Below are positions 24,618-46,336 of a stretch of DNA of 64,000 nucleotides, piece after piece. Below the pieces are notes generated by a model. It searched no databases, was not told where the DNA came from, and worked only from the letters and a program-made list of their open reading frames with translations. The stretch comes from Verrucomicrobiia bacterium DG1235. GTDB taxonomy: Bacteria > Verrucomicrobiota > Verrucomicrobiia > Opitutales > Opitutaceae. The stretch's first letter is position 1, and every line of letters starts with the position of its first letter. The position numbers and the translations under genes are program-made. Where the stretch lies: contig DS990592.1 of the NCBI GenBank assembly GCA_000155695.1, positions 4,105,820 to 4,169,819 on the forward strand, given 5' to 3'.

Positions 24618-25439
24618 ATGAGCACACCAAAGTTTGACATTGAGGAAAAGAAGGAGGTTACGGAAGCGATGCTCCGGATGCGAGAAGTAGAGCCTCGGAT
24701 ACTGAATCAGAATCTGCATTGCTCTCATGTGAGCGGTCGCGTTTTGTCAGTGCCGGAGGACTACGACTTTACTCTTCTCCATGAGGGGGAATCTCCCAAG
24801 TCTTTTGTCGATTCGGTTTTGGCTTTGTTGAGAGAGGGGCGTTTTATCGGAATCGATTGCACGCCTCAGCATTACTTGAACAAGGCTTGGGAGAACTACA
24901 AGGTACTGTCATACATCGACGTGAATTCGACCGACGGAAAGACTGCGTTGAATGTAGGTGGGGGCTCGTGCTTGATAAACGCCTATCTTGCTTCGAAGGG
25001 GATCGCTGTCTCGTCTGTGGACAAGTGTGAGCGGTCTGCGTTTCTGATTGATAACGAGAACGAGATTGCGAAGAAGCTCTCTCTCGATTTGCGGGCAATT
25101 GATTGTGACTTTCTCAATTGGGAGGAGGGGAGATTGTTCGATTACGTTTTCTCGATTTGTGTGATCGAGCACTTGTCGACGCGGGAAATGCAGGCCGAGT
25201 TTGTGCGTGGAATGGCAAAGCGGGTAAGGCCAGGCGGGTTTTTCCTTCTGACTTTTGGATACGGGCCGAAAGGAACTACGAATCCTTATCTGAATGAGGA
25301 AGATGTGGCGACTCACATTTGTGGTTACCTCGATGATTTCGAAATTGTGGAGCCTTTTTCTTTTTCTGGATTGTGGACAATTTCGGAGGGGCATACTTGG
25401 GGTTTTCTCGCAGCGAGAAGAAAACCGGAGGTACATTAA
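24618..25439 (+). CDS. SAM-dependent methyltransferase (class I)
   Basis: 273 residues. The Rossmann-type SAM site begins with ALNVGGGSCLINAYLASKG, an N-terminal GxGxx-like motif in which GGG replaces the more common GCG, followed by an acidic SVDKCERS, and then the usual FDYVFSICVIEHL motif IV and GGFFLLTFGYG. Residues 1-95 form a helical N-terminal extension. It lies three bases after the phosphatase gene and likely methylates a sugar or an intermediate of the surface glycan. The acceptor is unknown. Confidence 0.75.
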   Translation: MSTPKFDIEEKKEVTEAMLRMREVEPRILNQNLHCSHVSGRVLSVPEDYDFTLLHEGESPKSFVDSVLALLREGRFIGIDCTPQHYLNKAWENYKVLSYIDVNSTDGKTALNVGGGSCLINAYLASKGIAVSSVDKCERSAFLIDNENEIAKKLSLDLRAIDCDFLNWEEGRLFDYVFSICVIEHLSTREMQAEFVRGMAKRVRPGGFFLLTFGYGPKGTTNPYLNEEDVATHICGYLDDFEIVEPFSFSGLWTISEGHTWGFLAARRKPEVH

Positions 25440-25537
25440 GTTTTCACTTTTCCAGTAACGGCTTTGGGTTTTCTACCCGTCTCGAGCGGAGGATTTGTGT
25501 GTTAAGCGAAATATTGTAGGAGAGTTTGAGAAAAAAT

Positions 25538-25543
25538 GGAGGG
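25538..25543 (+). promoter_or_regulatory. Strong ribosome binding site pointing to an out-of-frame ATG
   Basis: GGAGGG lies seven bases before the ATG at 25551. That ATG opens a 50-codon frame that overlaps the beginning of the 875-residue protein in a different phase. No comparable site precedes the ATG at 25649. Confidence 0.7.
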
Positions 25544-25550
25544 ATAAAGA

Positions 25551-25703
25551 ATGAAAGCAGCCGTATGTATCGGCTTTCGACCTACATGGTGCAATTATTG
25601 GGAGGATCTTGACCTGACCGTGGTTTTGGGACCTAGTCATCGTCACGTATGCGGACTGCCACTGACACCCCTGAACTGGCCTTGGATTTGCATGGTTGCT
25701 TAG
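25551..25703 (+). CDS. 50-codon frame overlapping the next gene; leader or true N-terminus
   Basis: Begins MKAAVCIGFRPTWCNYWEDL, continues DLTVVLGPSHRHVCGL, and ends in a less protein-like stretch before TAG. The first 30 residues look like a genuine beta-strand start. It has the best ribosome site of the locus. It is in a different frame from the 875-aa protein, which has a blocking stop at 25634-25636. A one- or two-base indel between about 25637 and 25700 would fuse them. It could alternatively be a coupled leader peptide. Confidence 0.45.
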   Translation: MKAAVCIGFRPTWCNYWEDLDLTVVLGPSHRHVCGLPLTPLNWPWICMVA

Positions 25704-28276
25704 GGTTAGCGACTGGCCGTTGGGATGGACTGATTAGCCTCATCTCGTGGCGTATAAAACGGGTTGCGATTGAGGAAGGATTGGGCGACGAGGTTGTTTG
25801 CCGGGACCTGAAGGCTTTTGCGGATCGATTTTTTGGAGCGAAAAACTTGGAGGCTTACGATGAGATCGCGGTGGCGTCTTCGGATTCCTGCATCATTTCT
25901 CTGGATACTTTGGAGGGCGTGAAGATCCGTTTTCCTGAGGCGGATGTTGCGTGCGCTAGATTAGGCGACTCGGATGATGGTGAGGTGGTTTCGCGACGAA
26001 TTACCGAGGCTCTCGACGCGGGGCTGCGAGGCGTTTTCTCGGAGCTGCGGCCGGAGGAGATCTCAGCTTGGGTTGACGTTGAGAAACTTGAGTGGTACGC
26101 AAAGACTTGGCTGCCGCTTCTGCCCTTGGGCGAGTCATCGGATGCGAAGACGCTTCGAGCAGGCGGCGGGCACTTGGTTCTGTGGGTTGAAGGCGAAAAG
26201 CGGGACTATTTGCGTGAGTTGGTTTTTAGTGAGCTAGCCAGCTTAGGCTGGGAATCATTTCGTCTGACCTCTGATGAGCTGGGGGCGAAGTCGGTGGGTG
26301 ATATTGAGGAGATATTGAAGGGATACGGGACTTGTGTTGGGCTTTTTGCGGGGCACGAAAGAACGGTTCTTCCATTGACCCAGGCGGCTCGAAATTCAGG
26401 ATGCGAGCTCAGATTGCTAGGAGATGTTAGGCCGTCACCTTTTGGATTTATTGACCTAGGATTGGAATATCCGTTTGAGGAATTTCCCAGTGGCAACTCG
26501 TTGCGACTTTTCGCAAAACTGGCTATCAAGATGTTAGTTCGATCCGAGGATGAGCCGAAAAAGGAAGAAGCTTTCGGGACCGTATCTATCGGAGATGTCG
26601 CAGACGAATTCATTGCGCGGCTGCTTTCATTGGCTTCCGGAAAGGAGGGTGTGGTTTGGGGGGCTTTGGGAGACTTGAGCGATCACGAGGCAGGCCTTGT
26701 CGGTGAGAAAGCCGAGGATCCGAAGGAAGTGGAGAACGTGGCTCTTTGGCTGCGGTCGCCGCGATCGCGAGCGGCGGCGATCCGGTTTCTCGATACAAAT
26801 CGAGAGTTGATTGTTAAGTACGACTACCTGCTACGGCGGGAGCTGCTCGTTCACTACTTGTGCTTTTCCGGAAACAGGGAGGCGGAAGCGTTCTTCACAA
26901 GACTGGCCCAATCTTCTCAAGTAGAGTTGTGGCTCACCCTTGCTGAGTCAGTCGTTTCGTCGATATCGGTTCGGGCTGAAAAGGTGATGCAAGGACGAAT
27001 GGGACGCCTAGTGTTGGCGGTCTTGGAGGCAGTCGCAACTGCAGATGGCAAGGAGGGTGTGAAGCTTTTTGTTATCTTAAAAGTGCTTCTTTCGAAGGAG
27101 TCGGAGACAGATGCTGGCGAGCCTTTGCCTCTTGAAACGCTACGATCTATGATTCGTTTTCTAGAGGAAGAAAGTGATGGAGTTAGGGAAGGCGAGGAAG
27201 CTTCTGCGGGGGCAGATGAAGCTGTGGCATACCTTATGGAGCTGCGTGGCGAATCGTCTGCTGCTGATCGGTTGTATCGTCAAGCCTTCACTGACGGCAA
27301 GCTTCCTGCCCCGTTGATGTGTCGCTGGGTAGAGCTGCTTCTTGCAAGCGACAAAGTAGATGAAGCGTCTAATGTATCCAAGCATTTGTTACTTAGAGAT
27401 CGCGGTCGCACGAGGATTGGTTTTGATGCGGGAGCAGCTCTATCTAAGAAGGGGCGCTACTGGGAGGCGTTGCCGTTCTTCGAGGCAAGTGCGGAAAATT
27501 TGGTTTTCTTGAGGGAGTCCTATTTGCCTGATGTGTTGCGAGCAATGGGGGCGACGCGACAAATTGATCAAGCGAGAGCGTTCATTTCGAGGGTTGTCTC
27601 TGAGACCAATATCAAGTCAGTGGATACCAGTGCACTTGTTTCTATCTTCTATCGCGACTTCATTCACGAGATTCCGCAGCTATCTGCGGACGCGGGTCTA
27701 AGAGCGGACTGGGAAAGGTGCATGCAGTTGCACATCGAAACTGGCGAGAAGCTCGAAAAGACTGAGGCTTGGCACAGTGCTTTGGTTCGAGTGGCGACCG
27801 CGTTGGGCGAAACGAAGATTGCAGAAGCTGCAGCTAACGGAAGTCGGTGCTTTAAGGGCGTCCAGGATCCGTTTGCAAGCGTGGCCTTGGTTTCTGCAAT
27901 AAAGTCGGACCGCGAGGGTTTGGAGCGAGCCTTAGGCTTCGCGAAATCGGAGGTCGAAGACAGGCCCGTGGAGGCAATGCTATGGGGAGTTGCGGCGGCC
28001 TTGTCGGGAGACGGGGCAAAGGCCTGTGATTACTTCGCGATGGTGTTGCGAACCGATGGACAATTTTTCGATATGGAAAATTTGGCTCCTGGGCTCGCGT
28101 TTTGGATTGGGTTGGTGAAACGGGGTGTAGGGTTGGACATCAATGATGGGGTGGAAGCCAAGTTGAAAGGAGCTCAGGGATTTAGTGGATACTTTGAATT
28201 ATGGAACAGCTGGAGGCCGGGGATTGCCGATGGCGGTGGTGAGTTGAGGGAATTTTTGGAGTCTAGCCTGAGATAG
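25649..28276 (+). CDS. 875-residue protein of unknown function, alpha-solenoid C-terminal half
   Basis: I do not recognise a family. Residues about 1-300 are alpha/beta, with Rossmann-like alternation (HLVLWVEGEKRDYLRELVFS, then CVGLFAGHERTVLPLTQAA and LRLLGDVRPSPFGFIDLGLE), reminiscent of a nucleotide-sugar or glycosyltransferase fold but without a clear catalytic motif. Residues about 320-875 are helical hairpins rich in Leu/Ala with TPR-like features (AADRLYRQAFTDGKLPAPLM, KGRYWEALPFFEASAENL). No signal peptide or membrane segment. It lies between a methyltransferase and a glycosyltransferase gene in the glycan operon. Its ATG lacks a good ribosome site, and the true start may lie upstream at 25551 through a frameshift. 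Confidence 0.7.
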   Translation: MRTATDTPELALDLHGCLGLATGRWDGLISLISWRIKRVAIEEGLGDEVVCRDLKAFADRFFGAKNLEAYDEIAVASSDSCIISLDTLEGVKIRFPEADVACARLGDSDDGEVVSRRITEALDAGLRGVFSELRPEEISAWVDVEKLEWYAKTWLPLLPLGESSDAKTLRAGGGHLVLWVEGEKRDYLRELVFSELASLGWESFRLTSDELGAKSVGDIEEILKGYGTCVGLFAGHERTVLPLTQAARNSGCELRLLGDVRPSPFGFIDLGLEYPFEEFPSGNSLRLFAKLAIKMLVRSEDEPKKEEAFGTVSIGDVADEFIARLLSLASGKEGVVWGALGDLSDHEAGLVGEKAEDPKEVENVALWLRSPRSRAAAIRFLDTNRELIVKYDYLLRRELLVHYLCFSGNREAEAFFTRLAQSSQVELWLTLAESVVSSISVRAEKVMQGRMGRLVLAVLEAVATADGKEGVKLFVILKVLLSKESETDAGEPLPLETLRSMIRFLEEESDGVREGEEASAGADEAVAYLMELRGESSAADRLYRQAFTDGKLPAPLMCRWVELLLASDKVDEASNVSKHLLLRDRGRTRIGFDAGAALSKKGRYWEALPFFEASAENLVFLRESYLPDVLRAMGATRQIDQARAFISRVVSETNIKSVDTSALVSIFYRDFIHEIPQLSADAGLRADWERCMQLHIETGEKLEKTEAWHSALVRVATALGETKIAEAAANGSRCFKGVQDPFASVALVSAIKSDREGLERALGFAKSEVEDRPVEAMLWGVAAALSGDGAKACDYFAMVLRTDGQFFDMENLAPGLAFWIGLVKRGVGLDINDGVEAKLKGAQGFSGYFELWNSWRPGIADGGGELREFLESSLR

Positions 28277-28291
28277 AACTGACATTGATTT

Positions 28292-29971
28292 ATGGATACA
28301 GCGAAATTTTCCGATGCGCGTTGCGCGGTCTTCTTTAACTGCAATGATCCTCAGCTGCCGCAGGTGAGTTGGTTGGTGGAGTCTCTGAGAAGTAAAACTG
28401 GAGGCGATTTTTCGGGACAGATCTTTGCGTTGTCTACTGGCTTGTCTGATGTTTCGCGGAAGTGGCTAGACGGTTTGGGAGTAGGTTGGCGTGTCCGAGA
28501 TTTGCAAGGGCTTGGTGACTGGAGCGAGTGGTGTGGCGCGGCGAATACGGTACATAACGAAATGCGCTATGCACGTGATAGAAGAGGCGAAAGCGACATT
28601 TGGAACGGAAGCTTGTGTGAGCAGTTGAGCGGTTTAGGGTGTAGCCAAATTTCGGATATGCTTGCTTCTGCGGTGGAGGGTTCTTCCTCTACGGATGGTC
28701 CGTCCAACTGGAGTCAGTTTCGCAACAAGCGATTCAGCAAGCTAGGGATCATTCCAGCACTTGAGGAGCTGGAAGGGCAATTCGATTGGGTGGTTTTTTG
28801 CGATACGGACATTATTTTCCAAGAGTCGTTGTCGGGTTTATTCGAGTCTTTGCCTGAAGGAAAGGTGGCAGGTGAGCTCGAGATGGGCAGGATTCGCCCC
28901 GGTTCCGGAATTGCCATCAAGGACGGTTATCTTCGTGAAATAAGGCCGGAGGAGGCTTCTCGAATCGAATTCCCTGACCGCGAGCTGAATATTGGTTTAC
29001 TCGCTGCTAGGCCCGCGAACATGCTGAGCACTTGGAAGGCGGCTCGTGAGCTGATGTTAGCAACTGAGAATCGTCCCTTGTATGAGCGACATTGGCACGA
29101 GCAGGACTTCTTTCGACTGTTAAGGGCACGAGAGCCAGAGCGTTTCTCGCGACTTCCTTCGAATTCTGTTTTTCACGCCTGTGGTCATGCGGTGGATTTT
29201 GTCGAGCAAGACGAGGAGGTCCGTTTCTCTGTCAGAGGCAGTAGGCGTCGCCCCGCAGCTATGCATTTTGCAGGTGGAACTTGGAGAAAGTTTCCGATGG
29301 TATCGCAGGTTTACACAGCTACGTACGAGACTTTGATGCAGCAAGCTGGCTTGATAATCAGCTCGGATGCGATCGCTTACGCTAAGGCTTTCACCTTGGA
29401 AAATGAAAGCGTATTGGAAAACTGGATATTGCAGGAGTCGGGACTTGAAGGTTCAGTTCGGGTAGCGGAGATCGGAGCGTTTTTTGGCTCGCTCGGGGCG
29501 GCACTTTCATTGAGGTCCGAATCTATTGACGGTCTTGAGTTGAAGGTGGATATCGTGGACGGTTGCCGTATCGGAAAAGACTGGGAGTGGCAGGTGTGTC
29601 GAGGGAATCGATATCCTTTTGCGTTGATTCCTGAGTATGGAAGGTCGCAACAAGCGATAATGGAGAAACGGTTGGGCGAGTTGCCAGGTGTGCGGCTCTT
29701 TCTCGGCTCGGAGTCGGCAGCGTACGAGCCGGAAGAGGAATTGAGTCTTGTTGTTTTTGGCAGGGCAAAGCATCGAGAATTGTTCAAAGAAGATGTAGAC
29801 CTTCACTGGTGTAAGATTCGTGCAGGTGGCTGGATGGTGGTGAGGCGATTTGCTGGGGTCTCGCCCGGAACGCGGCTCTCCATAATGGAGAGTTTACCCG
29901 ATGCATCGGAGATAGCGTTTTTGCGATACTCTCAGGCGGGGGGATTTCTTGCGGTGAAAAAGGCGACTTAA
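28292..29971 (+). CDS. GT8-like glycosyltransferase fused to a methyltransferase-like domain
   Basis: 559 residues. The N-terminal half resembles nucleotide-sugar transferases of the GT-A fold: FDWVVFCDTDIIF with a DxD motif (171-173), preceded by NKRFSKLGIIPAL and followed by ELNIGLLAARPANM. The C-terminal part (about 385-545) has a Rossmann start VAEIGAFFGSLGAALSL, then VDIVDGCR and LSLVVFGRAKH, the layout of class I SAM-dependent or related domains. The region between looks like a linker with CGHAVDFVEQ. It follows the 875-aa protein by 15 bases and is tightly coupled to the small membrane gene after it (stop and ATG adjacent). Confidence 0.65.
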   Translation: MDTAKFSDARCAVFFNCNDPQLPQVSWLVESLRSKTGGDFSGQIFALSTGLSDVSRKWLDGLGVGWRVRDLQGLGDWSEWCGAANTVHNEMRYARDRRGESDIWNGSLCEQLSGLGCSQISDMLASAVEGSSSTDGPSNWSQFRNKRFSKLGIIPALEELEGQFDWVVFCDTDIIFQESLSGLFESLPEGKVAGELEMGRIRPGSGIAIKDGYLREIRPEEASRIEFPDRELNIGLLAARPANMLSTWKAARELMLATENRPLYERHWHEQDFFRLLRAREPERFSRLPSNSVFHACGHAVDFVEQDEEVRFSVRGSRRRPAAMHFAGGTWRKFPMVSQVYTATYETLMQQAGLIISSDAIAYAKAFTLENESVLENWILQESGLEGSVRVAEIGAFFGSLGAALSLRSESIDGLELKVDIVDGCRIGKDWEWQVCRGNRYPFALIPEYGRSQQAIMEKRLGELPGVRLFLGSESAAYEPEEELSLVVFGRAKHRELFKEDVDLHWCKIRAGGWMVVRRFAGVSPGTRLSIMESLPDASEIAFLRYSQAGGFLAVKKAT

Positions 29972-30283
29972 ATGAGCTCGCACGCTATTCTGTTTCTAGG
30001 TTTTGCTGTTTGGACATGCGTCTTTTCGCTTTTGTTGTTTTTCAGGCCTGCACAAGAGGCTCGGGCTTGGGAAAAGTGGTGTCGATCGTTTATCGGGGTT
30101 TTATTGCTGCTTTTGCCGATTGTAGTGATCCTTCACTTACGAAGGTTTATTGTATTTAGCGAACTAGAGTCAGGAGTGGAGAGTCCGCTCGAGATTTGGG
30201 AGGCGGTAGTGTTTCCCATGTATGTTTTTGCGCTAGCGATGCATGTGTACTTGAATCGCCACTACTACGGGAGGCTTCGATGA
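29972..30283 (+). CDS. Small 3-TM membrane protein A, related to 31736-32041
   Basis: 103 residues with three predicted membrane helices, a short external loop and a basic end (LNRHYYGRLR). Its ATG directly abuts the preceding TAA, and its own TGA overlaps the ATG of the oxidoreductase gene (ATGA), so translation is coupled. It aligns over its whole length with the protein at 31736-32041 (shared WxxxxR..LLLL, E.VV.P.Y, H...NR.Y....R pattern). No family is recognised. Flanking a flavoenzyme, it may be a membrane anchor or quinone-side electron carrier; that is inference, since no haem or Fe-S ligand is visible. Confidence 0.8.
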   Translation: MSSHAILFLGFAVWTCVFSLLLFFRPAQEARAWEKWCRSFIGVLLLLLPIVVILHLRRFIVFSELESGVESPLEIWEAVVFPMYVFALAMHVYLNRHYYGRLR

Positions 30284-31743
30284 TTTCGAAGGCTTCACCC
30301 TATGTTATTGTTGGAGGGGGATTAGCCGGGTTGGCTTTGGCCAGCGAGCTGGTAAAGTCTGGTCGTCGTTGTTTAGTTGTTGAAGCTGGCGGTTCTGCAC
30401 CTGTTGAGGATTGGCGGGACCTGACGTGGTTTGATGCGGAGCGTGACAAGCTGGAGCTCGATACGACGCATGAATACAATGATAAGTTGGCTCGGGTGAA
30501 GGCTTTGGGTGGTAGCTGCGAGGCTTGGGAGGCTTATACGCCGAGGTGGAATCGATCGGATTTTAAGCAGAATAGTTCTTGGGGTGTGGGTCGCGATTGG
30601 CCGTTTGGATTTGAGGAGTTGGAAACCTACTACCTGAGGAGCGAGCGCTTAATGGGTGTCGCGGGAGGCAAACTCGGTTGTCGGGACGAAGAGAGGAGCG
30701 CTCCCTTTCCGCTGCCTGCCTTCTCTTGGACTAGATACGAGGAAGAGATTGCTCGACGATCTGCGAGTCTGGGAGTGTTTTGGCATGACTATCCTCAAGC
30801 CAGAAACTCTAGGCCCTATGGTGGGAGAGGTCACTGCAATGGGATAGGTGTCTGCAATGCTTGTCCAATTCAGGCTCGGTGGACGCCGAGGGCTGGCTTG
30901 CTGCCGCAGCTTCAGGCAAGCGAGCTTTTCGAGTTGAGTTGCGACACGGTTTGCGAGGGGTTTGTCTGTTCTGGTAGTGGCAGGGTGGATGCGGTCGTTT
31001 TGAAACGCGGGGATAGTGAAACCGTTCGGGTCGATTGTGAGCAAGTTGTTTTGGCAGCGGGTGCGATCGAGTGTTCGAGGCTTTTGCTTTTGAGTCGAAG
31101 AAATGGCGTAGGAGAAGGGGCATTTCAGAATCCAGCGATAGGGAAGGGGTTCATGGACCATCCGATTTTGCGGGTTTGCGCTGACTTGAGTTGGGATCCT
31201 GGGGTTTCTCGACAAACTAACATGTTGGCGAGCAGTCACTCTTTCAGAGATTTCGAAGTCACCTCTGGGGCTTGGGGTTTTATGTTGAATTTGAACAGGC
31301 GAATTCTGCCGAGGCTTTGCCTTTCTGCGCATTTGGAAATGCCTGCGGTGGAAGAGCACAGGGTAGAGCTTAGCGACAAGCTGGTGGATCGGTTTGGAAA
31401 TCCGGTTGCTAAGCTTAGGATAGGCAATCGTTACGAAGGTTACTCTGAAAGCGAGGAGCGGGCGTACCGTGAGATGGAGCGAATCGCTCGTGAAGTAGGC
31501 GGCAAATCTGTATCGAAAGTGCCGTTACAATTGTGGGCATGCCACCCTATGGGAGGCTGTCGCATTTCGAAGGGCGAAAGTGAAGGTGTCGTCGATCCGA
31601 ATTTGCGAGTATGGGCAATGCAGAATATGTATGTTCTTTCGAATGGGGTTTTCCCGAGTGGCGCGGCGGTGAATCCAAGTTTGACCTTGATGGCGCTCGC
31701 CCTGCGTTTGGGAGACCATTTGAAGGGAGGCGCGTATGCCTAG
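30280..31743 (+). CDS. GMC-type FAD-dependent oxidoreductase
   Basis: 487 residues from the ATG at 30280; the longer upstream reading overlaps the previous gene in a wrong frame. FAD-binding motif YVIVGGGLAGLALASEL at the N-terminus, then the GMC-type VKALGGSC segment and the C-terminal GVFPSGAAVNPSLTLMALAL. WACHPMGGCRIS holds the catalytic-type His region. An internal Cys cluster, C186, C192 and C195 in HCNGIGVCNACPIQARW, resembles the Fe-S cluster site of FAD glucose and gluconate dehydrogenases. No twin-arginine signal peptide is seen. Substrate is probably an alcohol or sugar group in the glycan pathway. The next gene overlaps it by 8 bases. Confidence 0.8.
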   Translation: MISKASPYVIVGGGLAGLALASELVKSGRRCLVVEAGGSAPVEDWRDLTWFDAERDKLELDTTHEYNDKLARVKALGGSCEAWEAYTPRWNRSDFKQNSSWGVGRDWPFGFEELETYYLRSERLMGVAGGKLGCRDEERSAPFPLPAFSWTRYEEEIARRSASLGVFWHDYPQARNSRPYGGRGHCNGIGVCNACPIQARWTPRAGLLPQLQASELFELSCDTVCEGFVCSGSGRVDAVVLKRGDSETVRVDCEQVVLAAGAIECSRLLLLSRRNGVGEGAFQNPAIGKGFMDHPILRVCADLSWDPGVSRQTNMLASSHSFRDFEVTSGAWGFMLNLNRRILPRLCLSAHLEMPAVEEHRVELSDKLVDRFGNPVAKLRIGNRYEGYSESEERAYREMERIAREVGGKSVSKVPLQLWACHPMGGCRISKGESEGVVDPNLRVWAMQNMYVLSNGVFPSGAAVNPSLTLMALALRLGDHLKGGAYA

Positions 31744-32041
31744 CGGTTTTTGGATAGCCGTTTTTGTGTCCGCGATGCTTTCAGTATTCGCGTTTGCAAT
31801 TGTATCCAAAGTTCGGAGTCGTACACCGGAAGGGCGTGTCATTTGGCTCTATCGATTGAACCTAGCTTTGTTGTTGCTCGCGATGCTGTTGGTGGCCTTG
31901 AGGCTGCTAGAAGCCATTGTTGCTAACCGGGCAATTGATACGGCTTTGGTGGCTATAGAAGGCGTTTTGCTTCCGTGGTACGGCATTTTGTTGCTTTGTC
32001 ACCTATGGGCGAATCGGGACTATTTTCGCCCTAGGAGCTAA
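31736..32041 (+). CDS. Small 3-TM membrane protein B, paralogue of 29972-30283
   Basis: 101 residues, three predicted membrane helices, basic end (NRDYFRPRS). It starts inside the last codons of the oxidoreductase gene (8-base overlap), so expression is coupled. Its length, helix spacing and end motif match the small protein upstream of the oxidoreductase. Both start with a helix, carry a basic cytoplasmic loop (SKVRSRTPEGR here), then two helices. No cofactor ligand is obvious. Together they suggest a membrane complex for the flavoenzyme, or a transport-type pair. It is the last plus-strand gene before the convergent subtilase. Confidence 0.8.
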   Translation: MPSGFWIAVFVSAMLSVFAFAIVSKVRSRTPEGRVIWLYRLNLALLLLAMLLVALRLLEAIVANRAIDTALVAIEGVLLPWYGILLLCHLWANRDYFRPRS

Positions 32042-32043
32042 GG

Positions 32044-35000
32044 CTACTTGCCGTAGGCAGCAATTTCCCAGTTTTCGGACATTGCGGAGCCATGAACTAA
32101 TCCGCCCGCGCTTCGTACGCCGGATGAGTTGATTACCCATTTTGAAACGAGCTGAGTTCCAGAATTATGCAGAATGACGTCGTCGATATCGTCTCCATTT
32201 AGGTCGCCGATGGCTGTTATTGCCCATCCAGAGCTCATGGGGGAGCTGTGAACGAGCCCACCTGAGCTTCTGACGCCGGAGCTGTTTATCAGCCATTTGG
32301 ATACGTATCCTGTGTTTAGGTTTTGGAGTAGGACGTCTTCGATGCCATCTCCGTTGAGATCGGCTGTGCCCGCGATCGACCATCCAGAGCTCATGGGGGA
32401 GCTGTGGACGAGTCCTCCTGAGCTTCTGACACCGGAGCTGTTTATCAGCCATTTGGATACATATCCTGTGCTTGTGTTTTGGAGTAGGACGTCGTCGATA
32501 TCGTCTCCATTTAGATCTGCGGTGCCGGCGACGGTCCAGCCAGAGCTGAGTGGAGATCCGTGCACGAGTCCTCCGGATGCGCGCACTCCGGATGAGTTGA
32601 GAAGCCATTTTGAGATCAGGCGAGAGTTGCTGTTTTCGAGGAGAAGATCGTCTATGCCGTCGCCGTTGAGATCTGCTGCTCCCGCTACCGACCATCCTGT
32701 TCCCATAGGGGAGCTATGGACGAGTCCTCCTGAAACGCGTTCTCCGTATTCGTTCATCAGCCATTTGGATACGAGTCGTGTGGATGTATTTTCCAGGACG
32801 AGATCCTTGACGCCGTCGCCATTCATATCGGCGGTGGTCTTGATGGTCCAGTTGGCGCTCATGGGGGAAGTGTGGGCGAGGCCGCCTGCTGCTCGGGTGC
32901 CGGGAGAATCGATCATCCACTTGGCAACGTATCTTGTGTTCGAATTTTCGAGAAACATGGGAATGACGGTGCCCACGGCTTCGACGGAAGTTTGTACACT
33001 GGTACCGAAGTTGGCGTAGGAGGAGCCATCGTTGCCCCAGAAAGTGTAGTAGTAGGTTTGGCCGGGAGTGAGGCCGGTGTGTTCGTATTCACTCGCTGTC
33101 CCTGTGTAGATTTCCGTTCCGTCGCTGCTGCTTGCCGGGAATCCGCTGGTGCTGCAACGAATGTAGATGATGCTGTTTGCCATGCCTGAATTGGCGGGGT
33201 CGGTCCACGTGAGGCGAACCTTGCTGTTAGCTGTGGCGGAGGAGATGGAGATGCCGATGAGCTCCAAGGCATTGCGAGCGCTGAGGTGTCCGTAGCCGTT
33301 GGTGGTATCGTAGCCTGATGTCCCCATGTCCTCGCAGCCGTTGCGCATGGCACTCTCGACTTCGGCGGGAGTGATTGAGCTGTTGTAAGAGTGGAGGAGA
33401 GCAGCCACACCGCTCGCGTAGGGAGCGGAAAACGAGGTGCCATTAACGGTAGCGTAGTCACTGCTGCTGTAGCCTGAAGAGCCGGTGCGGTCGGTGGTGG
33501 TAACAGCGGTACCGGGGGCGAGGAATTCTAGGCCCGAGCCGTATTGGGAGAAACTCGATTTAGAGCCTGTGCGCTGGGAGGCGCCAACCGACATGACAGC
33601 GCTGGCACTGCTGGGAAAGCTGATTGAGCCATGTCCGCCGTTTCCTGCGGAGGCGAAGTGGGTGATACCTGCGGAGCGTGTGTTCGAGTAGGCGGAGCTG
33701 ACGGACGATGAGACGCTTCCGTAGGAGTTGCTGTTGACTGTGACTTTGGCGCCGATGGTTTCGGTCCAATTGATAGCGTTGACGACCCATGAGTAGCTTG
33801 TGCTGAAGCTGCCGTTTGGTTGCCCGTTGTAGTGGGGTCGGGCTGAGGCGACCTGAACTCCGGGGGCAATGCCCGCGGCGCCGATGCCGTTGTTCATCTT
33901 GCCGGATATGTAGCCGGCTACTGCTGTGCCGTGATTGTCGTTCGAAGTGACGGGACCGCCTTGTGGATTGATGCCGCTTTCGGGGGTAAAGTCTTTTCCG
34001 TTACCGGTCCATTGATTTAGGTCCGGGTGGTTTGGTTCTATCCCGTTGTCGATGACGACTGCGATAACTGAGGAGCTGCCGGTGGTGTAGTCCCATGCTT
34101 CGAGGGCGTGCATATCGAAACCGCTAAGTGTGCTGTTTACGAGTCCCCAACCGCCGCTGTCCGAGAGGAGGGGATCGTTTGGCATGGATATGAGGCTCTC
34201 GCCCCACTGAGCGTCTTCTAGACTAGGATCGGGCTTGTAGCCTTGTCCTAGGTCGAGGTCTGCCCCTTCTGGCTCGACGATGGCGAGAGGGGTTGAGGCA
34301 GGAATTCTGCCGGTCAAGAACATGTCCGGTTCTGCGTAGTTGAATTCGGGTAGCTGGCTAAGGTCGGCAGCGAGCTCAACGATTTCGAAACCGTTTCGAG
34401 CTGGGTATTCCAGGTAGAGGTCTCGCCGGTTTGCTCCGAGAAACTCGTAGTGACTGAAGTTTCCTTTCAGTGAGGCGAGCGAGAGGGCTTGCTCTTCGGT
34501 GGTCTCAGGGCTGAGACCAATGAGGAGGGCTTGTTGGGGCAGGAGGGGGTCGCCTCGGAAATCGAGGAACACAGGGGCTGCGTATTCAACTCCTGGGTGT
34601 GAGGTGGCTGCTTCAACCAGGGTACGTGAAAAGTCGGTTTCACTCCATCCCGAGTTTGCGGCGGTCTCCCAGAGGCTGCCGAGTTCGAGATAGCGCCATC
34701 CAGGTAAGGGATGCTCGATGGCGGAAGATCCGGGAATAGTGTTTTGAGTCAGGTCTACGCCGGCAGCTGTATCCGTAATTTTAACTGCGATCTTCTTGGG
34801 ATCGACTTGGAGTGCTTGCGGCTCGTCTTTGAAGAATCGCAGGGTAGGGGGAGGTCCTGAAACTTTGGTCCAAGGTAGTGTAGCGTGAGAGCTTGCGAGG
34901 CCAGCCGAAGAGGCATCGGACGCGTCTTGATCTACTCGATTTTGACCGTCTGTCTCTACCTGAATAGATTGAGGTTGGGTATCGCTCCTGAGGATCAGGA

Positions 35001-35073
35001 GAGCGACAGCAGATAGGACGATCAGGCTGAGGCCAAACGCGCGGCGAAGTCTCTGTGGGAGATGTGCTTTCAT
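32044..35073 (-). CDS. Subtilisin-family (S8) protease with fibronectin III and VCBS-like repeats
   Basis: 1009 residues. An N-terminal signal/anchor (about 1-29) is followed by a 280-residue pro-region, the S8 catalytic domain with Asp342 (VVIDNGIEPNHPD), His381 (NDNHGTAVAGYISG), Asn478 (SAGNGG) and Ser547 (NGTSFSAPYASGVAALL), a fibronectin III domain (about 607-700), and six 51-52-residue repeats (705-1009). The repeats carry DxNxDGxxD calcium-binding loops of FG-GAP/VCBS type. It is probably secreted and calcium-stabilised. It sits on the opposite strand inside the glycan locus, so it may be an inserted gene. No C-terminal sorting domain is clear. Confidence 0.93.
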   Translation of the reverse strand: MKAHLPQRLRRAFGLSLIVLSAVALLILRSDTQPQSIQVETDGQNRVDQDASDASSAGLASSHATLPWTKVSGPPPTLRFFKDEPQALQVDPKKIAVKITDTAAGVDLTQNTIPGSSAIEHPLPGWRYLELGSLWETAANSGWSETDFSRTLVEAATSHPGVEYAAPVFLDFRGDPLLPQQALLIGLSPETTEEQALSLASLKGNFSHYEFLGANRRDLYLEYPARNGFEIVELAADLSQLPEFNYAEPDMFLTGRIPASTPLAIVEPEGADLDLGQGYKPDPSLEDAQWGESLISMPNDPLLSDSGGWGLVNSTLSGFDMHALEAWDYTTGSSSVIAVVIDNGIEPNHPDLNQWTGNGKDFTPESGINPQGGPVTSNDNHGTAVAGYISGKMNNGIGAAGIAPGVQVASARPHYNGQPNGSFSTSYSWVVNAINWTETIGAKVTVNSNSYGSVSSSVSSAYSNTRSAGITHFASAGNGGHGSISFPSSASAVMSVGASQRTGSKSSFSQYGSGLEFLAPGTAVTTTDRTGSSGYSSSDYATVNGTSFSAPYASGVAALLHSYNSSITPAEVESAMRNGCEDMGTSGYDTTNGYGHLSARNALELIGISISSATANSKVRLTWTDPANSGMANSIIYIRCSTSGFPASSSDGTEIYTGTASEYEHTGLTPGQTYYYTFWGNDGSSYANFGTSVQTSVEAVGTVIPMFLENSNTRYVAKWMIDSPGTRAAGGLAHTSPMSANWTIKTTADMNGDGVKDLVLENTSTRLVSKWLMNEYGERVSGGLVHSSPMGTGWSVAGAADLNGDGIDDLLLENSNSRLISKWLLNSSGVRASGGLVHGSPLSSGWTVAGTADLNGDDIDDVLLQNTSTGYVSKWLINSSGVRSSGGLVHSSPMSSGWSIAGTADLNGDGIEDVLLQNLNTGYVSKWLINSSGVRSSGGLVHSSPMSSGWAITAIGDLNGDDIDDVILHNSGTQLVSKWVINSSGVRSAGGLVHGSAMSENWEIAAYGK
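32047..32961. repeat. Six tandem repeats of about 153-156 bases in the subtilase gene
   Basis: The repeats encode KW(L/M/V)(I/L/M)(N/D)SxGxRxxGGL(V/A)Hx units. Units 4 and 5 are nearly identical at DNA level, which points to recent duplication or gene conversion; units 1 and 6 are the most divergent. Confidence 0.85.
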
Positions 35074-35297: not shown

Positions 35298-36434
35298 ATG
35301 GGCAATCATGTACTTATTGTTGGGGCGGGATTATATGGGTCTGTCATGGCTCGGGAGCTGACTGATGCGGGCTGCAAGTGCTGTGTGATTGAGCGTCGAA
35401 ATCACATCGGGGGGAATTGCTATACTGAGCATGTGGAAGAGGCAGGCTGCCATCGACATGCTTATGGTCCTCATATTTTCCATACAAATTCCGAAGACAT
35501 TTGGAATTATATGAATCAGTTTTGCTCCTTTAATTCCTATGTTCACCGGGGCAAGTCGTTGTGTAAGGGAAAACTGTATTCTTTGCCGATCAACCTATCG
35601 ACGTTTTATGAGGTTTATGGGGTGAAAACGCCTGATGAGGCTCGCATGCGCCTGGAGGAGGTGAGGGTTCAGACAGGTGATGTCGACAATTTAGAGGACT
35701 GGTGTCTCGGGGAAATCGGACCGGAGCTCTACGAGCTTCTCGTCAAGGGATATACGATCAAGCAATGGAGGAAAGATCCGAGGGAGCTTTCTGCTTCGAT
35801 TATCAAGCGCTTGCCTGTTCGCTTAAACTTTGACGATAATTATTTTCGAGATCGCTTTCAGGGAATTCCAATTGGTGGCTACACGCGAATATTCGAACGA
35901 CTTCTAGAAGGTGTCTCCGTAGAGTTGGAAGTTGACTTTATGTCTGACCGAGACGGTTGGATGTCCCGTTTTGATCATATCATCTACACAGGTCCAATTG
36001 ATGCGTTTTTCGACTATTCCGAAGGATTGTTGGAGTATCGCTCTTTGAGGTTCGAGAATGAAATATTGGATACAGTTGATTATCAAGGTGCTTCGATAAT
36101 AAATTGTGGAGATATAGAGGTTCCTTACACGCGTACGATTGAGCACAAGCACTTTGATCTAGATTATTCGAAAGCAAGAACACTTGTAACGAAGGAGTAT
36201 CCACAAGACTGGTACGAAGGTAGGGAGCGATACTATCCAATCTCTACTTCAAACAATGCAGAAACCTACCAAAAGTACCGGGAGCTAGCGGTGTCCCTTG
36301 ATCTGCCAGTGACCTTTGGAGGGCGGCTAGGGCAGTACAAGTATTTTGATATGCATCAAGTCGTGGCAGCGGCGCTCACCAAGTCGCGCCAGCTTCTCGC
36401 GCGTGACTTTAAATCCTTCAAAAAGGAGAACTGA
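35298..36434 (+). CDS. glf: UDP-galactopyranose mutase, copy 1
   Basis: 378 residues. Glf converts UDP-galactopyranose to UDP-galactofuranose through a flavin adduct. FAD motif LIVGAGLYGSVMARELTDAG at the N-terminus, then RRNHIGGNCYTEH and GPHIFHTNSEDIW, and the active-site region YTRTIEHKHF with KEYPQDWYEG, all hallmark positions. A second, clearly related copy lies at 45221-46336. Its supply of UDP-Gal could come from the galE at 22.3 kb. It begins a tightly spaced plus-strand operon; the ATG is 224 bases after the subtilase start on the opposite strand, in a region likely to hold promoters both ways. Confidence 0.93.
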   Translation: MGNHVLIVGAGLYGSVMARELTDAGCKCCVIERRNHIGGNCYTEHVEEAGCHRHAYGPHIFHTNSEDIWNYMNQFCSFNSYVHRGKSLCKGKLYSLPINLSTFYEVYGVKTPDEARMRLEEVRVQTGDVDNLEDWCLGEIGPELYELLVKGYTIKQWRKDPRELSASIIKRLPVRLNFDDNYFRDRFQGIPIGGYTRIFERLLEGVSVELEVDFMSDRDGWMSRFDHIIYTGPIDAFFDYSEGLLEYRSLRFENEILDTVDYQGASIINCGDIEVPYTRTIEHKHFDLDYSKARTLVTKEYPQDWYEGRERYYPISTSNNAETYQKYRELAVSLDLPVTFGGRLGQYKYFDMHQVVAAALTKSRQLLARDFKSFKKEN

Positions 36435-38538: not shown

Positions 38539-39528
38539 ATGTTAAGGGTAGGAATTATTGGATACGGAAAGATGGGGCGCATTCGTGAGAAGGCACTTCG
38601 TGAAAGTGGGCGGGCGGAAGTCGTGATGATCTATGATAGGGAGAAAATTGAGGACGCTCCCTGCCGTGTAGCTGCTTCAGAGGAAGAAATTCTCGATTCG
38701 CCGAGCATAGACTGTGTATTTCTTTGCGCTCCAAACTATCGTCTTCCTCCGCTTGTCAGGGAATGCCTGACAAAAGGAAAGCATGTGTTTGCCGAGAAGC
38801 CTCCCGGTTTTGACGCTGCTGACGTAGAGTCTATACGCTCGATAGAAGCGAAACATCCGAAGCTGAAGCTGATGTATGGGTTTAATCACCGGCATCACGC
38901 CAGTATCGATAAAATGAAGACAATGATCGATAGTGGCGAGCTGGGAAAAATCCTTTGGATGCGTGGAAGGTATGGGAAGGAGGTCGATGAATCCTATTTC
39001 GATACTTGGCGGGCGAAACCCGAACTAGCGGGTGCGGGTATCATGTTAGATCAAGGTATCCATATGCTGGATCTTTTCCTCTATTTTAGCGGAGACTTTG
39101 ACCAAGTGCACGCGTTAGTTTCGAATCTGTATTGGAAGATAGATGGGATCGAGGACAACGTATTTGCGATTTTCAAAAACTCGCAATCTGGTGTTTGCGC
39201 CTCTTTGCATTCCACGATGACTCAGTGGCGGTATTTGTTCTCTCTAGAGATTTTCTTGGAAGGAGGGGCATTGATACTGAACGGATTGAAAACGTCGTCG
39301 GGCGTCTATGGGGATGAGGATTTGGCAATCAAGCGGAATAATCCCGATGCTCATGGAGGATTTGCTCATGAAGAGCATATCGTTTACCATTCAGATCAGT
39401 CGTGGGCGTCTGAGATTAAGCACTTCTTAGATTGCATCGATTTTGACGAGCCGGTCTCGCAGGGCAGTTCCTCTGACGCCCTTAAACTTATGCGGGTTAT
39501 GGACAAGATATACGCCAGCGACTCATGA
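38539..39528 (+). CDS. Gfo/Idh/MocA-family sugar oxidoreductase
   Basis: 329 residues from the ATG at 38539. Rossmann motif VGIIGYGKMGRIREKAL, the family's CAPNYRLPPLVRECLTKGKH and FAEKPPGFDAADV (conserved EKP), then the C-terminal sheet domain with GIMLDQGIHMLDLFLYFSGD. Family members oxidise or epimerise sugar or inositol derivatives using NAD(P). The stop overlaps the next gene's ATG (ATGA). It belongs with the cytidylyltransferase, isomerase and hydroxyacid dehydrogenase as a likely sugar-biosynthesis set. Confidence 0.88.
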   Translation: MLRVGIIGYGKMGRIREKALRESGRAEVVMIYDREKIEDAPCRVAASEEEILDSPSIDCVFLCAPNYRLPPLVRECLTKGKHVFAEKPPGFDAADVESIRSIEAKHPKLKLMYGFNHRHHASIDKMKTMIDSGELGKILWMRGRYGKEVDESYFDTWRAKPELAGAGIMLDQGIHMLDLFLYFSGDFDQVHALVSNLYWKIDGIEDNVFAIFKNSQSGVCASLHSTMTQWRYLFSLEIFLEGGALILNGLKTSSGVYGDEDLAIKRNNPDAHGGFAHEEHIVYHSDQSWASEIKHFLDCIDFDEPVSQGSSSDALKLMRVMDKIYASDS

Positions 39529-40814
39529 AAAATGTGGACGAGTCGAGTGTAGTTAAAACGTTATTACGCATCTTTCTAAGAACAGGGAAGAGCAGGGGAA
39601 GCGGCCGTCGAACCTGCTACTATCCTGCCTTTGGCAAGAGGGATGATTTGCGAAATCACTATTTTCGGGCGAGGTGGTACCTGCCTCGAGTTGAGGGTGT
39701 TTGTGAGTCGGTGATTTTCGGCGTTCCAAAGCTCGAGAATCTTCCGAACGAGGATGAGCGGCCAAGAGAGATTGGTAGCTCGAGTGGTGACTACTCGCAT
39801 TTCAGGGGAATCGCCTCATCGGCGTGCTATGCGTGGTCGCTTGCTCAGGCCGGTGAAATACTTGTTTGGGATAGCAGCTGTTCGGACAGTGAAACTATCG
39901 CGATACTCAAGCGAAGTGGGAAAAGGATATGGAATGTAGATACAGCAGAGGTCAAGGGACGGGAGTATGCTGTATATTGTGAAATGCTTTGGTGGATGAC
40001 ACCGGAGGCGCGGCGGAAAGAAATAGTCGAAGAGAATAGAGAGCGATTCAATGACTATGCACTCGACTTGAAGGGAGGAGGAATTGATCGAGGTTTTGTA
40101 TTTGGAAACGGTCCCAGCCTAAAGAAGTGCATTGAATATCGGTACGAAAATTCGGTACGAGTTATGTGTAATTCTATCGTCAGCAACGACGAGATTTTGG
40201 ACGTAGTTAGGCCGCAGTTCATTGTGGCTGGAGATCCGATGTGGCATTTCGGATGTTCAAGCTATTCGGAAGCCTACCGTTCGGATTTGGTGAGACAGCT
40301 TAAATCGAGGGACATGAGACTCGTAATTCCCGAATTTCAGGGCTATATACTGTCGGTTAATTTGCCTGAGGTAAGGGATCGCATCTTCTTGATTCCTCTG
40401 GCGGAGAAGCGGCCTAATTTGGATTTGCTTTCTGAATACAGGATTCCGTTATTCTGGAGCGTGCTAAATTCTTGCATGCTCCCGATTGCCAGTAGTTTCT
40501 GCGATAAGGTATATTTGCTCGGGTGTGACGGTAAGCCCGTCGATGATCGCAAGGAAGGTTTTTGGGCTCATGCAAGTGGGGTGCAATATACAGGGCTAGA
40601 AGCGGAAGGTCACAAGTGTCATCCCACTTTTGAACAGCATCGCATGGCACATCCAGAGTATCAGAGAGTTATGGCAGATTTGAGCGCAATGATTGAAGAG
40701 GGGGAAGAGGGACAGGGTAAGCAATACCGTACGCTCACCGCTTCCTACATGGCACCTTTATTCAGTCGCCTAGTGAATCTTGAGAGTTCGGAGGATAACG
40801 ATTCCAATGAGTGA
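39525..40814 (+). CDS. DUF115-like (MptE/Maf-fold) glycan biosynthesis protein
   Basis: 429 residues. The diagnostic FVFGNGPSLKKCIEYR, VMCNSIVSNDEIL and IVAGDPMWHFGCS are the nucleotide-sugar binding features of the DUF115 family, related in fold to Maf flagellin nonulosonate transferases and GT29/GT42 sialyltransferases. An N-terminal 190 residues is a different, unrecognised region. Because a CMP-sugar cytidylyltransferase is in the same operon, it may use that CMP-sugar; this is inference. It overlaps its upstream neighbour by 4 bases and its downstream one by 8. A second family member lies at 47467-48447. Confidence 0.65.
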   Translation: MKNVDESSVVKTLLRIFLRTGKSRGSGRRTCYYPAFGKRDDLRNHYFRARWYLPRVEGVCESVIFGVPKLENLPNEDERPREIGSSSGDYSHFRGIASSACYAWSLAQAGEILVWDSSCSDSETIAILKRSGKRIWNVDTAEVKGREYAVYCEMLWWMTPEARRKEIVEENRERFNDYALDLKGGGIDRGFVFGNGPSLKKCIEYRYENSVRVMCNSIVSNDEILDVVRPQFIVAGDPMWHFGCSSYSEAYRSDLVRQLKSRDMRLVIPEFQGYILSVNLPEVRDRIFLIPLAEKRPNLDLLSEYRIPLFWSVLNSCMLPIASSFCDKVYLLGCDGKPVDDRKEGFWAHASGVQYTGLEAEGHKCHPTFEQHRMAHPEYQRVMADLSAMIEEGEEGQGKQYRTLTASYMAPLFSRLVNLESSEDNDSNE

Positions 40815-44073: not shown

Positions 44074-45230
44074 TAATCGTTTCGACTGGGCTGGAGTCGA
44101 ATAGGATGGGGCGTAATGTGCTTTACGTTATTTTGGTTTAAGCGGGCGTCTAGGTAGTTTGGGAATAGAACGAGAGCTTTAGCGAAGAGCTTTTTGGCGT
44201 GGGCGTGGTCGCCGATTCTGGAGTGGGCGACGCCTAGGTTGTTGAGTACGTCGGGGGAGCGACAAAATTCGAGGCATTTCTCTAGATTAGAAATGGCTTG
44301 GTTTGGCTGGTCTTGGAGGAGGTAAAGGGTTCCGAGGGTGAAGGCGTGGCGCCAGCCTTCGGGGAGAGGGTAGGGGCCGGTGGGCTCGAGGATCTCTTGG
44401 GGATCGGATCCTTGGGGAAAGGCTTGGCGGAGGTAGTTGAGGGCGGCTTGGTAGTCTTCGCGGAAGGTGGCCATGGAGACGAGACCCCAGGCGGTGACGC
44501 GGTCTGAGAAACCGGCTTTTTGGTGGAGGGATTGGACGAAGGCGTAGTCGTGCTTCTGAAGGGCGCGGGCGACCATTTTCTTTTGGCGGGCGATGTTGCG
44601 GGAGTCGCTGCCGGGGTAGGCGTACATGCGGTATCCGATTTCTTGGCACACGCCCATTCGGGCGCCTGCGGCGATGAGGCGGAAGACGAAGTCGCTGTCG
44701 TCTCCGCCGAATTGCTGTGGATCGTAGCGTATTTTTCGAGCGAATTCGACGTCGAAGGCGATGTGACCGATGCCGGGCAGGTAGTTGCGTTCGAAGAGGC
44801 GGACTTTGTCTCGGTCGGATTGGATGAAGCTGGGGATGGGGAGGTCGCGCAGCTTTCGGTTGGTCTTGCCGTCGTAGAGTTCTTGGGCGTCGGAGATGAA
44901 ATCGATCGCTTCGTTTTGGAGGCGATCGTAGAGGCGTTTGACGCGGCCGGGGAGGTAGCAGTCGTCGGCGTCGCACCAGATGGCGTAGCGGGTTTGGACG
45001 GCTGCGAGGCCGGCGTTGCGGGCGTGGGGAACGTTTATGTGTTCGGCGGGGGAGACGACTTTGAGGAGCTTTCCGGCTATGGCCTGAGCGCGGATGACGG
45101 TGTCGTCGGTGGAGAAGTCGTCGATGAGGATGATTTGGGCGGCGTCCTGGTCCACGAGGGAGTAAACGCAGCGCTCGATGGTGGCGGCGGCGTCGCGGGC
45201 TGGGATGAGTATGGTGATGTCTAGCGCCAT
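44070..45230 (-). CDS. GT2 family glycosyltransferase with TPR-like C-terminus
   Basis: 386 residues. The N-terminal GT-A domain starts ALDITILIPARDAAATIERC, with LIDDFSTDDT and WCDADDCYLPGR (metal-binding DxD-type), and FGGDDSDFVFRL. The last 110 residues carry at least two TPR-like hairpins (TLGTLYLLQDQPNQAISNLE, LNNLGVAHSRIGDHAHAKKL). The TPRs may hold an acceptor or partner. It overlaps the UDP-galactopyranose mutase gene by 10 bases, so they are cotranslated. Acceptor and donor are not determined. Confidence 0.85.
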   Translation of the reverse strand: MALDITILIPARDAAATIERCVYSLVDQDAAQIILIDDFSTDDTVIRAQAIAGKLLKVVSPAEHINVPHARNAGLAAVQTRYAIWCDADDCYLPGRVKRLYDRLQNEAIDFISDAQELYDGKTNRKLRDLPIPSFIQSDRDKVRLFERNYLPGIGHIAFDVEFARKIRYDPQQFGGDDSDFVFRLIAAGARMGVCQEIGYRMYAYPGSDSRNIARQKKMVARALQKHDYAFVQSLHQKAGFSDRVTAWGLVSMATFREDYQAALNYLRQAFPQGSDPQEILEPTGPYPLPEGWRHAFTLGTLYLLQDQPNQAISNLEKCLEFCRSPDVLNNLGVAHSRIGDHAHAKKLFAKALVLFPNYLDARLNQNNVKHITPHPIRLQPSRNDY

Positions 45231-46336
45231 GAATCGATGAGGTCGCTGGCGGTTTTGAGGGCGGCTCCGATGACTTGGTGCATGTCGTAGTAGCGGTAGC
45301 TGCCGAGTCGACCGCCGAAGGTGACTTTTCCTTCAAGCTCGTTAGCGGCGGCGGAGTATTTGGCGTAGAGGGCTTGGTTTTCGTCGGTGTTGACTGGATA
45401 CACTTCTAGTCCTCCGGGTTTCCAGTCGATGGGGTATTCTTTGGTGAGGAGAGTTTGGTCGCGGGTGTAGTTGAGATCGAAGTGTTTGTGTTCGTAGGTG
45501 CGGGTGTAGGGGATGTCGGCGCTGGTGTGGTTGACGACGGCGCAGCCTTGGGCGTCGGGGGTGTCGAGCAGCTCGGTATCCCAGCGGAGGGAACGGTATT
45601 CGAGAGCGCCGAACTGGCGCTTGAAGTAGGCGTCGATGGGGCCGGTGAAAATAACGTGGTCGTATTTTCTGAGCCAGGCTTCCTGGTCTGCGAAGAAGTC
45701 GGTTTGGAGCTCGACGGGGATGCCGTCGAGGAGCTTTTGGAAGATGGCGGTGTAGCCGCCGATGGGGATGCCTTGGTAGCGGTCGGCGAAGTAGTTGTCG
45801 TCGAAGTTGAATCGGATGAGGACGCGTCGGGCGATGGCGGCGGGGAGTTCCTTGGGGTCGCGGTTCCATTGTTTGCGCGAGTAGCCGTAGAAGAAGGTTT
45901 CGTAGATGGAGCGTCCGAAGGTGGCGAGGCAGTACTCTTCCATATTCTTCGGATTGGCGTTGGGGATGCAGTCTTCGGCGATTCGGGCTTTGGCTTCTTG
46001 TGGGGTGCGTACGCCGAAGAGCTGGTGGAGAGTGAGCAGGTTGATGGGGAAGGAGTAGAGGCGATCGCCGTGGGCAGCTTTGACTCGGTTGACGTAGTTG
46101 TTGAAGGCGGCGTACTGGTTGATGTAGCTCCAGATTTTTTCGGAGTTGGTATGGAAGATATGGGCGCCGTAGACGTGTTGGTGGCTGTCTGCTTCTGGGC
46201 TGTAGCGTGTGTAGCAGTTTCCGCCGATGTGGTCGCGCTTTTCGATGACCTGGCATTGGTGGCCGGCGTTGGTGAGCTCTCTGGCGGAAACGGCTCCGAA
46301 GAAGCCTGAGCCGATTATGAGGACGCGTTTAGACAT
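45221..46336 (-). CDS. glf: UDP-galactopyranose mutase, copy 2
   Basis: 371 residues. Same motifs as copy 1: VLIIGSGFFGAVSARELTN, KRDHIGGNCYTRY, GAHIFHTNSEKIW and YTRTYEHKHF. By eye about half of residues agree with copy 1, but DNA composition and codon use differ (this copy is more G+C-rich). Both are likely active. It overlaps its neighbours on both sides (10 and 22 bases), forming a compact minus-strand set with two GT2 genes, one of which may use UDP-galactofuranose. Confidence 0.93.
   Translation of the reverse strand: MSKRVLIIGSGFFGAVSARELTNAGHQCQVIEKRDHIGGNCYTRYSPEADSHQHVYGAHIFHTNSEKIWSYINQYAAFNNYVNRVKAAHGDRLYSFPINLLTLHQLFGVRTPQEAKARIAEDCIPNANPKNMEEYCLATFGRSIYETFFYGYSRKQWNRDPKELPAAIARRVLIRFNFDDNYFADRYQGIPIGGYTAIFQKLLDGIPVELQTDFFADQEAWLRKYDHVIFTGPIDAYFKRQFGALEYRSLRWDTELLDTPDAQGCAVVNHTSADIPYTRTYEHKHFDLNYTRDQTLLTKEYPIDWKPGGLEVYPVNTDENQALYAKYSAAANELEGKVTFGGRLGSYRYYDMHQVIGAALKTASDLIDSWR

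Follow-up and report, generated by a model that had tools for sequence, protein, structure and literature searches.

The window considered here is the whole 64,000-nucleotide stretch that was analysed (G000:C6:4105820-4169819, G000 being the genome that holds it). On its + strand lies a triplet of genes: small membrane protein A (29972..30283; 103 aa, three helices), a GMC flavoenzyme (30280..31743; 487 aa) that is kin to the large subunits of glucose and fructose dehydrogenases, and small membrane protein B (31736..32041; 101 aa), which aligns with A as its paralogue. Upstream on the same strand are the genes for an 875-aa protein (25649..28276) and for a 559-aa putative GT-A type glycosyltransferase (28292..29971). 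The sequence-only reading described the junctions as an abutting stop and start, an ATGA overlap, and an 8-base overlap, and these coordinates are all correct: the 559-aa gene stops at 29971 and A starts at 29972; A and the flavoenzyme gene overlap in an ATGA, with the flavoenzyme ATG at 30280; and the flavoenzyme gene ends at 31743, within B, which starts at 31736. Scans of 25400-32200 find 2 promoter-like sites (3.4 expected) and 15 terminator-like sites (8.3 expected, sd 2.7), many of the latter inside genes, and these counts were given no weight. A gene on the opposite strand (32044-35073, -), encoding a subtilase with FG-GAP repeats, has its 3' end two bases past the stop of B; a 70% identical copy adjoins the triplet of genome G393, and the stretch read from genome G241 contains no match.

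Recurrence and neighbourhood of the triplet

The search for the flavoenzyme covered 384 genomes from the class, 200 and then 252 from the family, and 387 from the phylum (these samples overlap). Besides the window enzyme, they contain only two close relatives: one in G241, of the same family as the window (57% identity to the window enzyme; locus L005, with L036 on the same contig), and one in G393, of the same genus (56%; L037). The remaining matches in the 384 class and 200 family genomes are 25-36% identical; some reach 40-55%, but only within C-terminal pieces about 60-70 residues long. The clade of triplet enzymes is present in 3 of the 252 family genomes and in 2 of the 8 genomes of the genus. 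Both L005 (= L036) and L037 have an orthologue of A and the order A-GMC-B, and both inner junctions overlap at each, by 11 and 8 bases at L005 and by 4 and 13 bases at L037 when measured from predicted start codons. The repetition of this order, with its overlapping junctions, argues that the arrangement is beyond chance. As judged from gene order, the triplet is a conserved unit; the sequence-only reading had proposed such a unit and a search for the same order elsewhere, and recurrence in two other genomes bears it out.

A and B occur in the same genomes as the triplet flavoenzyme (3 of 120 family genomes). Among the 387 phylum genomes they are found in the window genome and G241, and a profile match in G705 (E 0.005) was rejected, as it overlaps other, longer frames in a 3.3-kb locus that lacks a GMC gene. 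When genome contigs were scanned with a two-row alignment, whose patterns are narrow, the known locus L036 (= L005) alone was confirmed, 1 of 63 candidate stretches; a scan of viral contigs with this alignment confirmed 0 of 89 stretches. Outside Verrucomicrobiota, the search covered plasmid records only: tblastn of the plasmid collection with A of L037 and B of L005 gives no match at E <= 1, and the flavoenzyme matches 474 plasmid records, every one at under 60% identity.

The genes around the triplet point to sugar chemistry. The 559-aa protein has a GT8 match that falls below the Pfam cut-off (E 0.042, or 0.023 when the N-terminal part is taken by itself) and a conserved DTD, and on these weak grounds it is a putative glycosyltransferase, with its C-terminal part unassigned. 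It had been described as a glycosyltransferase-methyltransferase fusion; Pfam gives no methyltransferase match in it, and that description is weakly supported. Of 200 family genomes, 3 have a homologue of the 559-aa protein (E <= 1e-30), and these are the triplet genomes; the homologue in G393 corresponds to the N-terminal part only (29%, residues 9-353), and its gene is some 15 kb away from the triplet. In that genome it is a 23% identical homologue of the 875-aa protein (25649-28276; no Pfam family at E 0.001) that abuts A.

Further along, the window cluster contains two UDP-galactopyranose mutases on opposite strands (35298-36434, +, and 45221-46336), a CTP transferase family member, a SIS-domain protein, a GFO/IDH enzyme, an inositol-phosphatase family member, and a methyltransferase, with glycosyltransferase families 1 and 2 represented as well. 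The mutase (including that at 35298..36434), the phosphatase, the GFO/IDH enzyme, and an MptE-like protein have homologues in both other triplet clusters. (The proteins encoded at 39525-40814 and 47467-48513 have a GNGPSL motif in common; the latter matches MptE-like, and the former has no Pfam family at E 0.001.) The gene cluster seems to build a cell-surface sugar chain.

The flavoenzyme and its usual partners

The flavoenzyme matches PF05199 (60.1 bits; cut-off 24.6), PF00732 (32.7 bits; cut-off 23), and general FAD/NAD-binding Pfam models; among the NCBIfam matches listed, no model reaches its cut-off. Its best seven PDB sequences are all large subunits of fructose or glucose dehydrogenases (E 5.9e-39 to 3e-37), and the next match is a pyranose oxidase at E 2.6e-9. 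A four-row profile of the flavoenzyme aligns with BcGDH, the FAD-dependent glucose dehydrogenase of Burkholderia cepacia (PDB 6a2u), over positions 4-484 (4.8e-67). In a midpoint-rooted tree of 27 rows, the triplet enzymes form a clade (support 100/100) inside an 11-row group (100/98) together with cytochrome-type enzymes, haloarchaeal enzymes, and those of L038 and L063, the last two on long branches that make their places unsure; this group does not include the two other GMC enzymes of the window genome. (It should be noted that L062 is unannotated, and its label as cytochrome-type, in the tree and in the loop comparison below, is assumed from its place beside L061 and L064.) The L063 enzyme (L063:2267-5387), a Methylorubrum GMC protein and, on its long branch, the tree neighbour of the triplet clade, has the genes for a 156-aa hypothetical protein and for a ferritin-like protein on either side.

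The report on BcGDH assigns Cys212, Cys218, and Cys222 to a 3Fe-4S cluster, names His476 and Asn519 as the likely catalytic pair, deems His105 the site of covalent FAD attachment, and describes a disulfide from Cys213 to the small subunit (PMC6719666). In the window enzyme C186, C192, and C195, which the sequence-only reading had singled out and which are indeed present, align with the cluster ligands, with one residue fewer between the last two, and are predicted to be 3Fe-4S ligands. H422 and N465 align with His476 and Asn519 at unchanged spacing. The position of the covalent-FAD His105 is occupied by A82, and by Ala in L005 and L037 as well; N187 stands in place of Cys213, a loss that is weak evidence because, according to the same report, this Cys is not conserved in the GDH group (PMC6719666). 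The idea that an internal Cys cluster is odd for such an enzyme does not hold, and the cluster was rejected as an unusual feature: all 57 aligned GMC open frames (many of them one gene repeated) have at least three Cys in this loop, and the cluster instead marks kinship with 3Fe-4S sugar dehydrogenases.

Two stretches of the window enzyme are shorter than in its relatives. In BcGDH a loop, Ala39-Leu83, holds a helix near the small subunit, towards which the protruding helices alpha11/12 are also turned (PMC6719666). The stretch E35-G77, which corresponds to this loop, has 43 residues, where nine enzymes taken for comparison have 56-76; H294-E353, which probably corresponds to alpha11/12, has 60, where the nine have 85-115. 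One of the nine, L063, has merely a 156-aa hypothetical protein as its upstream neighbour. A compact GMC relative of the same family (468 aa, 26% identity; L070, G385:C297:36053-37868, with the gene at L038:1489-2895) resembles the triplet enzyme in its short stretches (44 and 70 residues), its C-x5-C-x2-CPI motif, and its location in a glycan cluster. It differs in that a 147-aa Tat-like protein comes next and its genome has no A/B match. Since this enzyme has short loops and yet a Tat-like partner, short loops are no proof that the small subunit has been lost. (In the 147-aa protein, RRNFL lies close to the N-terminal end and a Cys close to the C-terminal end; PF13618 gives no match to it.) All three triplet enzymes have the GGG that binds FAD as early as residue 12, where it starts, which leaves no room for a signal peptide. 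The structure predicted for the flavoenzyme from a two-row alignment has a pLDDT of 32, too low to be of use.

Relatives of the flavoenzyme come with partners. In two annotated relatives the genes for small subunit, GMC enzyme, and cytochrome c are consecutive; in two haloarchaeal relatives the small subunit is upstream of the GMC gene, and in a third the upstream small subunit is indicated by a weak PF13618 match below the cut-off. The Gluconate_2-dh3-type GMC dehydrogenases, which include the two other GMC enzymes of G000 and the haloarchaeal ones, belong to the same broad family and have the Cys cluster, but their partner is a PF13618 small subunit, unlike that of the triplet. Within 12 kb of the three triplets, the CxxCH motif is absent from all open frames (18, 26, and 21), and none of them is a convincing Tat-type small subunit; the sole twin-arginine-like start in these regions, in a 78-codon frame of G241, was taken as chance. 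The earlier statement that known GMC systems pair with a Tat small subunit and a cytochrome thus agrees with the annotated relatives, and the triplet has neither nearby. A PF13618 search of six genomes gives 2 matches in G000, 2 in G444, and 4 in G241, and none in G393 (whole genome, about 96% complete; E <= 0.01), G385, and G266. Both G000 genes adjoin the two other GMC genes of that genome. The result for G393 argues that the triplet enzyme there has no recognisable PF13618 partner; PF13618 also misses the 147-aa partner in L038, and a divergent small subunit in G393 may therefore exist.

When set beside BcGDH (PDB 6a2u, 8grj) and fructose dehydrogenase (7w2j), then, the triplet is alike in the full-length kinship of the dehydrogenase, the predicted 3Fe-4S ligands, and the His/Asn pair, and in having its dehydrogenase gene flanked by two partner genes, as in relatives of this type. 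It differs in lacking a nearby Tat small subunit or cytochrome c, in its two shorter loops, in having A82 where BcGDH has His105 (covalent FAD), and in having two paralogous three-helix proteins instead of the usual partners. The missing small subunit and cytochrome argue that the triplet does not encode a standard complex of the glucose or fructose dehydrogenase type, although either partner could be encoded at a distance.

The small membrane proteins

The sequence-only reading had noted that A and B align with each other, and three kinds of comparison agree on this. BLASTP of the window proteins gives 23.5 bits (E 2e-4) over 34 residues; hhalign of the A and B profiles, with three members each, gives a probability of 94.9% (E 4.4e-8); and in 7 of the 9 A x B cross pairs no more than 1 of 1000 hydropathy-preserving shuffles attains the score, the other two pairs having 18 and 3 of 1000. 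By these measures, A and B are remote paralogues. Unrelated small proteins, or ones not conserved beside the oxidoreductase, were the result that the earlier reading had set against itself; the hhalign kinship and the occurrence of all three proteins in the same genomes go the other way.

Hydropathy gives three hydrophobic segments in each protein. An AlphaFold model of A from a four-row alignment has helices at 3-24, 27-61, and 72-94 and a short one at 96-100 (mean pLDDT 74.9), and a fold search with this model yields 71 matches at E <= 10 and 0 at E <= 0.001. For an N-out/C-in topology, K and R number 40 in the inner and 8 in the outer segments, with 6 of 6 proteins in agreement; the segment borders were set by hand, and R57/R58 of window A, inside helix 2, were left uncounted. 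The C-termini of A and B are accordingly predicted to be in the cytoplasm.

All three orthologues of A have H55 in helix 2 and H91 in helix 3. The equivalent of H91 in B is H89; helix 2 differs, with R56 of B at about the place of H55. In the six-row alignment of A and B the invariant positions (A numbering) are M1, L44, P82, Y84, H91, N95, and Y98. Of these, Y84, H91, N95, and Y98 of helix 3 fall within 60 degrees, as do about 1% of draws of four random positions (p about 0.01), a post hoc statistic in that the four residues were picked after the data had been seen; with P82 included, the five invariant helix-3 residues span an arc of 200 degrees, which is not unusual (p 0.48). Searches of Pfam and PHROGs with the six members, of NCBIfam with the two window proteins, and of PDB with the six-row profile return sub-threshold matches for A and B and no known family; in particular, no heme- or quinone-binding family matches them.

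A possible route to quinone and its alternatives

The lack of a visible export helper, the retained cluster ligands, and the gene overlaps with A and B argue for a membrane-held dehydrogenase as the simplest reading, and a membrane-anchored dehydrogenase with the small proteins as anchors, one of the roles first suggested for the triplet, is the best reading of it. We would put at about even the fuller proposal, in which A-GMC-B serves a surface-glycan pathway as a dehydrogenase of sugars (or polyols) that is bound to the membrane, faces the cytoplasm, and passes its electrons through the 3Fe-4S cluster and A/B to quinone; the kinship of the flavoenzyme and the conservation of the triplet, as read from the alignments, appear firmer than this whole. 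The flavoenzyme would oxidise a hydroxyl of a pathway sugar by means of its His/Asn pair on FAD, and electrons would move from FAD to the surface 3Fe-4S cluster. The enzyme has no adjacent hitchhiker small subunit and would not be exported; we infer that it stays in the cytoplasm, where its cluster face would dock on the cytoplasmic side of an A/B heterodimer. A and B would then replace the cytochrome c subunit and deliver electrons to the quinone pool, in much the way that SdhC/SdhD serve succinate dehydrogenase.

SdhC and SdhD are two small three-helix anchors of succinate dehydrogenase, itself a flavin and Fe-S enzyme. The likeness to A and B is a functional analogy only (paired three-helix proteins with a flavin and Fe-S enzyme); no meaningful PDB sequence match of A or B to SdhC/SdhD, and no such fold match of the model of A, is found. 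The authors of 6a2u draw a comparison between the GDH complex and fumarate reductases (PMC6719666).

It is the gene neighbours that suggest a glycan substrate for the triplet enzyme. Elsewhere in this GMC group, the haloarchaeal locus L050 encodes a small subunit and GMC enzyme (L050:4303-7192) with a family 39 glycosyltransferase on one side and a dolichyl-phosphate hexose transferase on the other, which hints at a role in glycan pathways for part of the group, and the L038 cluster contains Wzy_C, Polysacc_synt_3, and several glycosyltransferases. The haloarchaeal locus L049, however, lies among sugar-transport and sugar-catabolism genes, which argues against a fixed tie between the group and glycan synthesis.

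The same observations can be arranged differently. A and B might merely anchor the flavoenzyme or stabilise its cluster face, with no electrons passing through them, and the enzyme might be an oxidase or use another acceptor. The absence of any match of A or B to a cofactor family is consistent with this, and overlapping genes suggest joint synthesis rather than electron transfer; moreover, the BcGDH report proposes that the hitchhiker subunit shields the cluster until the cytochrome binds (PMC6719666). However, helix 3 of both paralogues has Tyr, His, and Asn invariant along one of its faces, which is more than an anchor requires, and the kept 3Fe-4S ligands suggest an external electron acceptor; pure anchoring seems unlikely, though far from negligible. 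Much less probable is a role in transport. ArnE and ArnF form a small heterodimeric transporter or flippase for a sugar lipid, and the glycan setting, together with the presence of two paralogous small membrane proteins, would suit a similar function for A and B, with the flavoenzyme modifying the same lipid. A and B, however, have three helices rather than four, show no SMR or EamA-type Pfam match, and in the genomes searched are found only alongside the flavoenzyme, with genes overlapping on both sides.

Just as improbable, in our estimate, is that a distantly encoded Tat-type small subunit still exports the flavoenzyme and that A and B are extra. PF13618 genes elsewhere in G000 (2) and G241 (4) could supply such a subunit, and L038 retains a Tat-like partner despite its short loops, but G393 has no PF13618 match and both G000 copies stand beside other GMC genes.

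To return to the membrane-bound dehydrogenase that feeds quinone, a more specific form of it can be drawn, which we consider doubtful and offer as speculation. In a pseudo-twofold heterodimer, H91 of A and H89 of B would face each other at the cytoplasmic side and would hold heme b or a quinone. The triplet would then be a new GMC:quinone oxidoreductase that feeds the oxidation of a glycan precursor directly into the respiratory chain, and the SdhC/SdhD arrangement would have been invented independently in polysaccharide biosynthesis.

Taken together, the comparisons of three loci, made at the level of sequence only, indicate that the triplet is apparently a known enzyme wired in a new way, with A and B in place of the export helper and cytochrome. 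Among the literature matches listed, as far as titles and the beginnings of abstracts go and with subscription journals mostly uncovered, there is no GMC enzyme with paired small membrane proteins and no such enzyme from a glycan locus. If the proposed route is correct, sugar oxidation in surface-glycan synthesis would be coupled to the respiratory chain, and a periplasmic three-subunit type of dehydrogenase would have been rewired, by the swap to A and B, as a membrane enzyme of the inner face. It would also give two related small membrane proteins, which match no family in these searches, a testable role.
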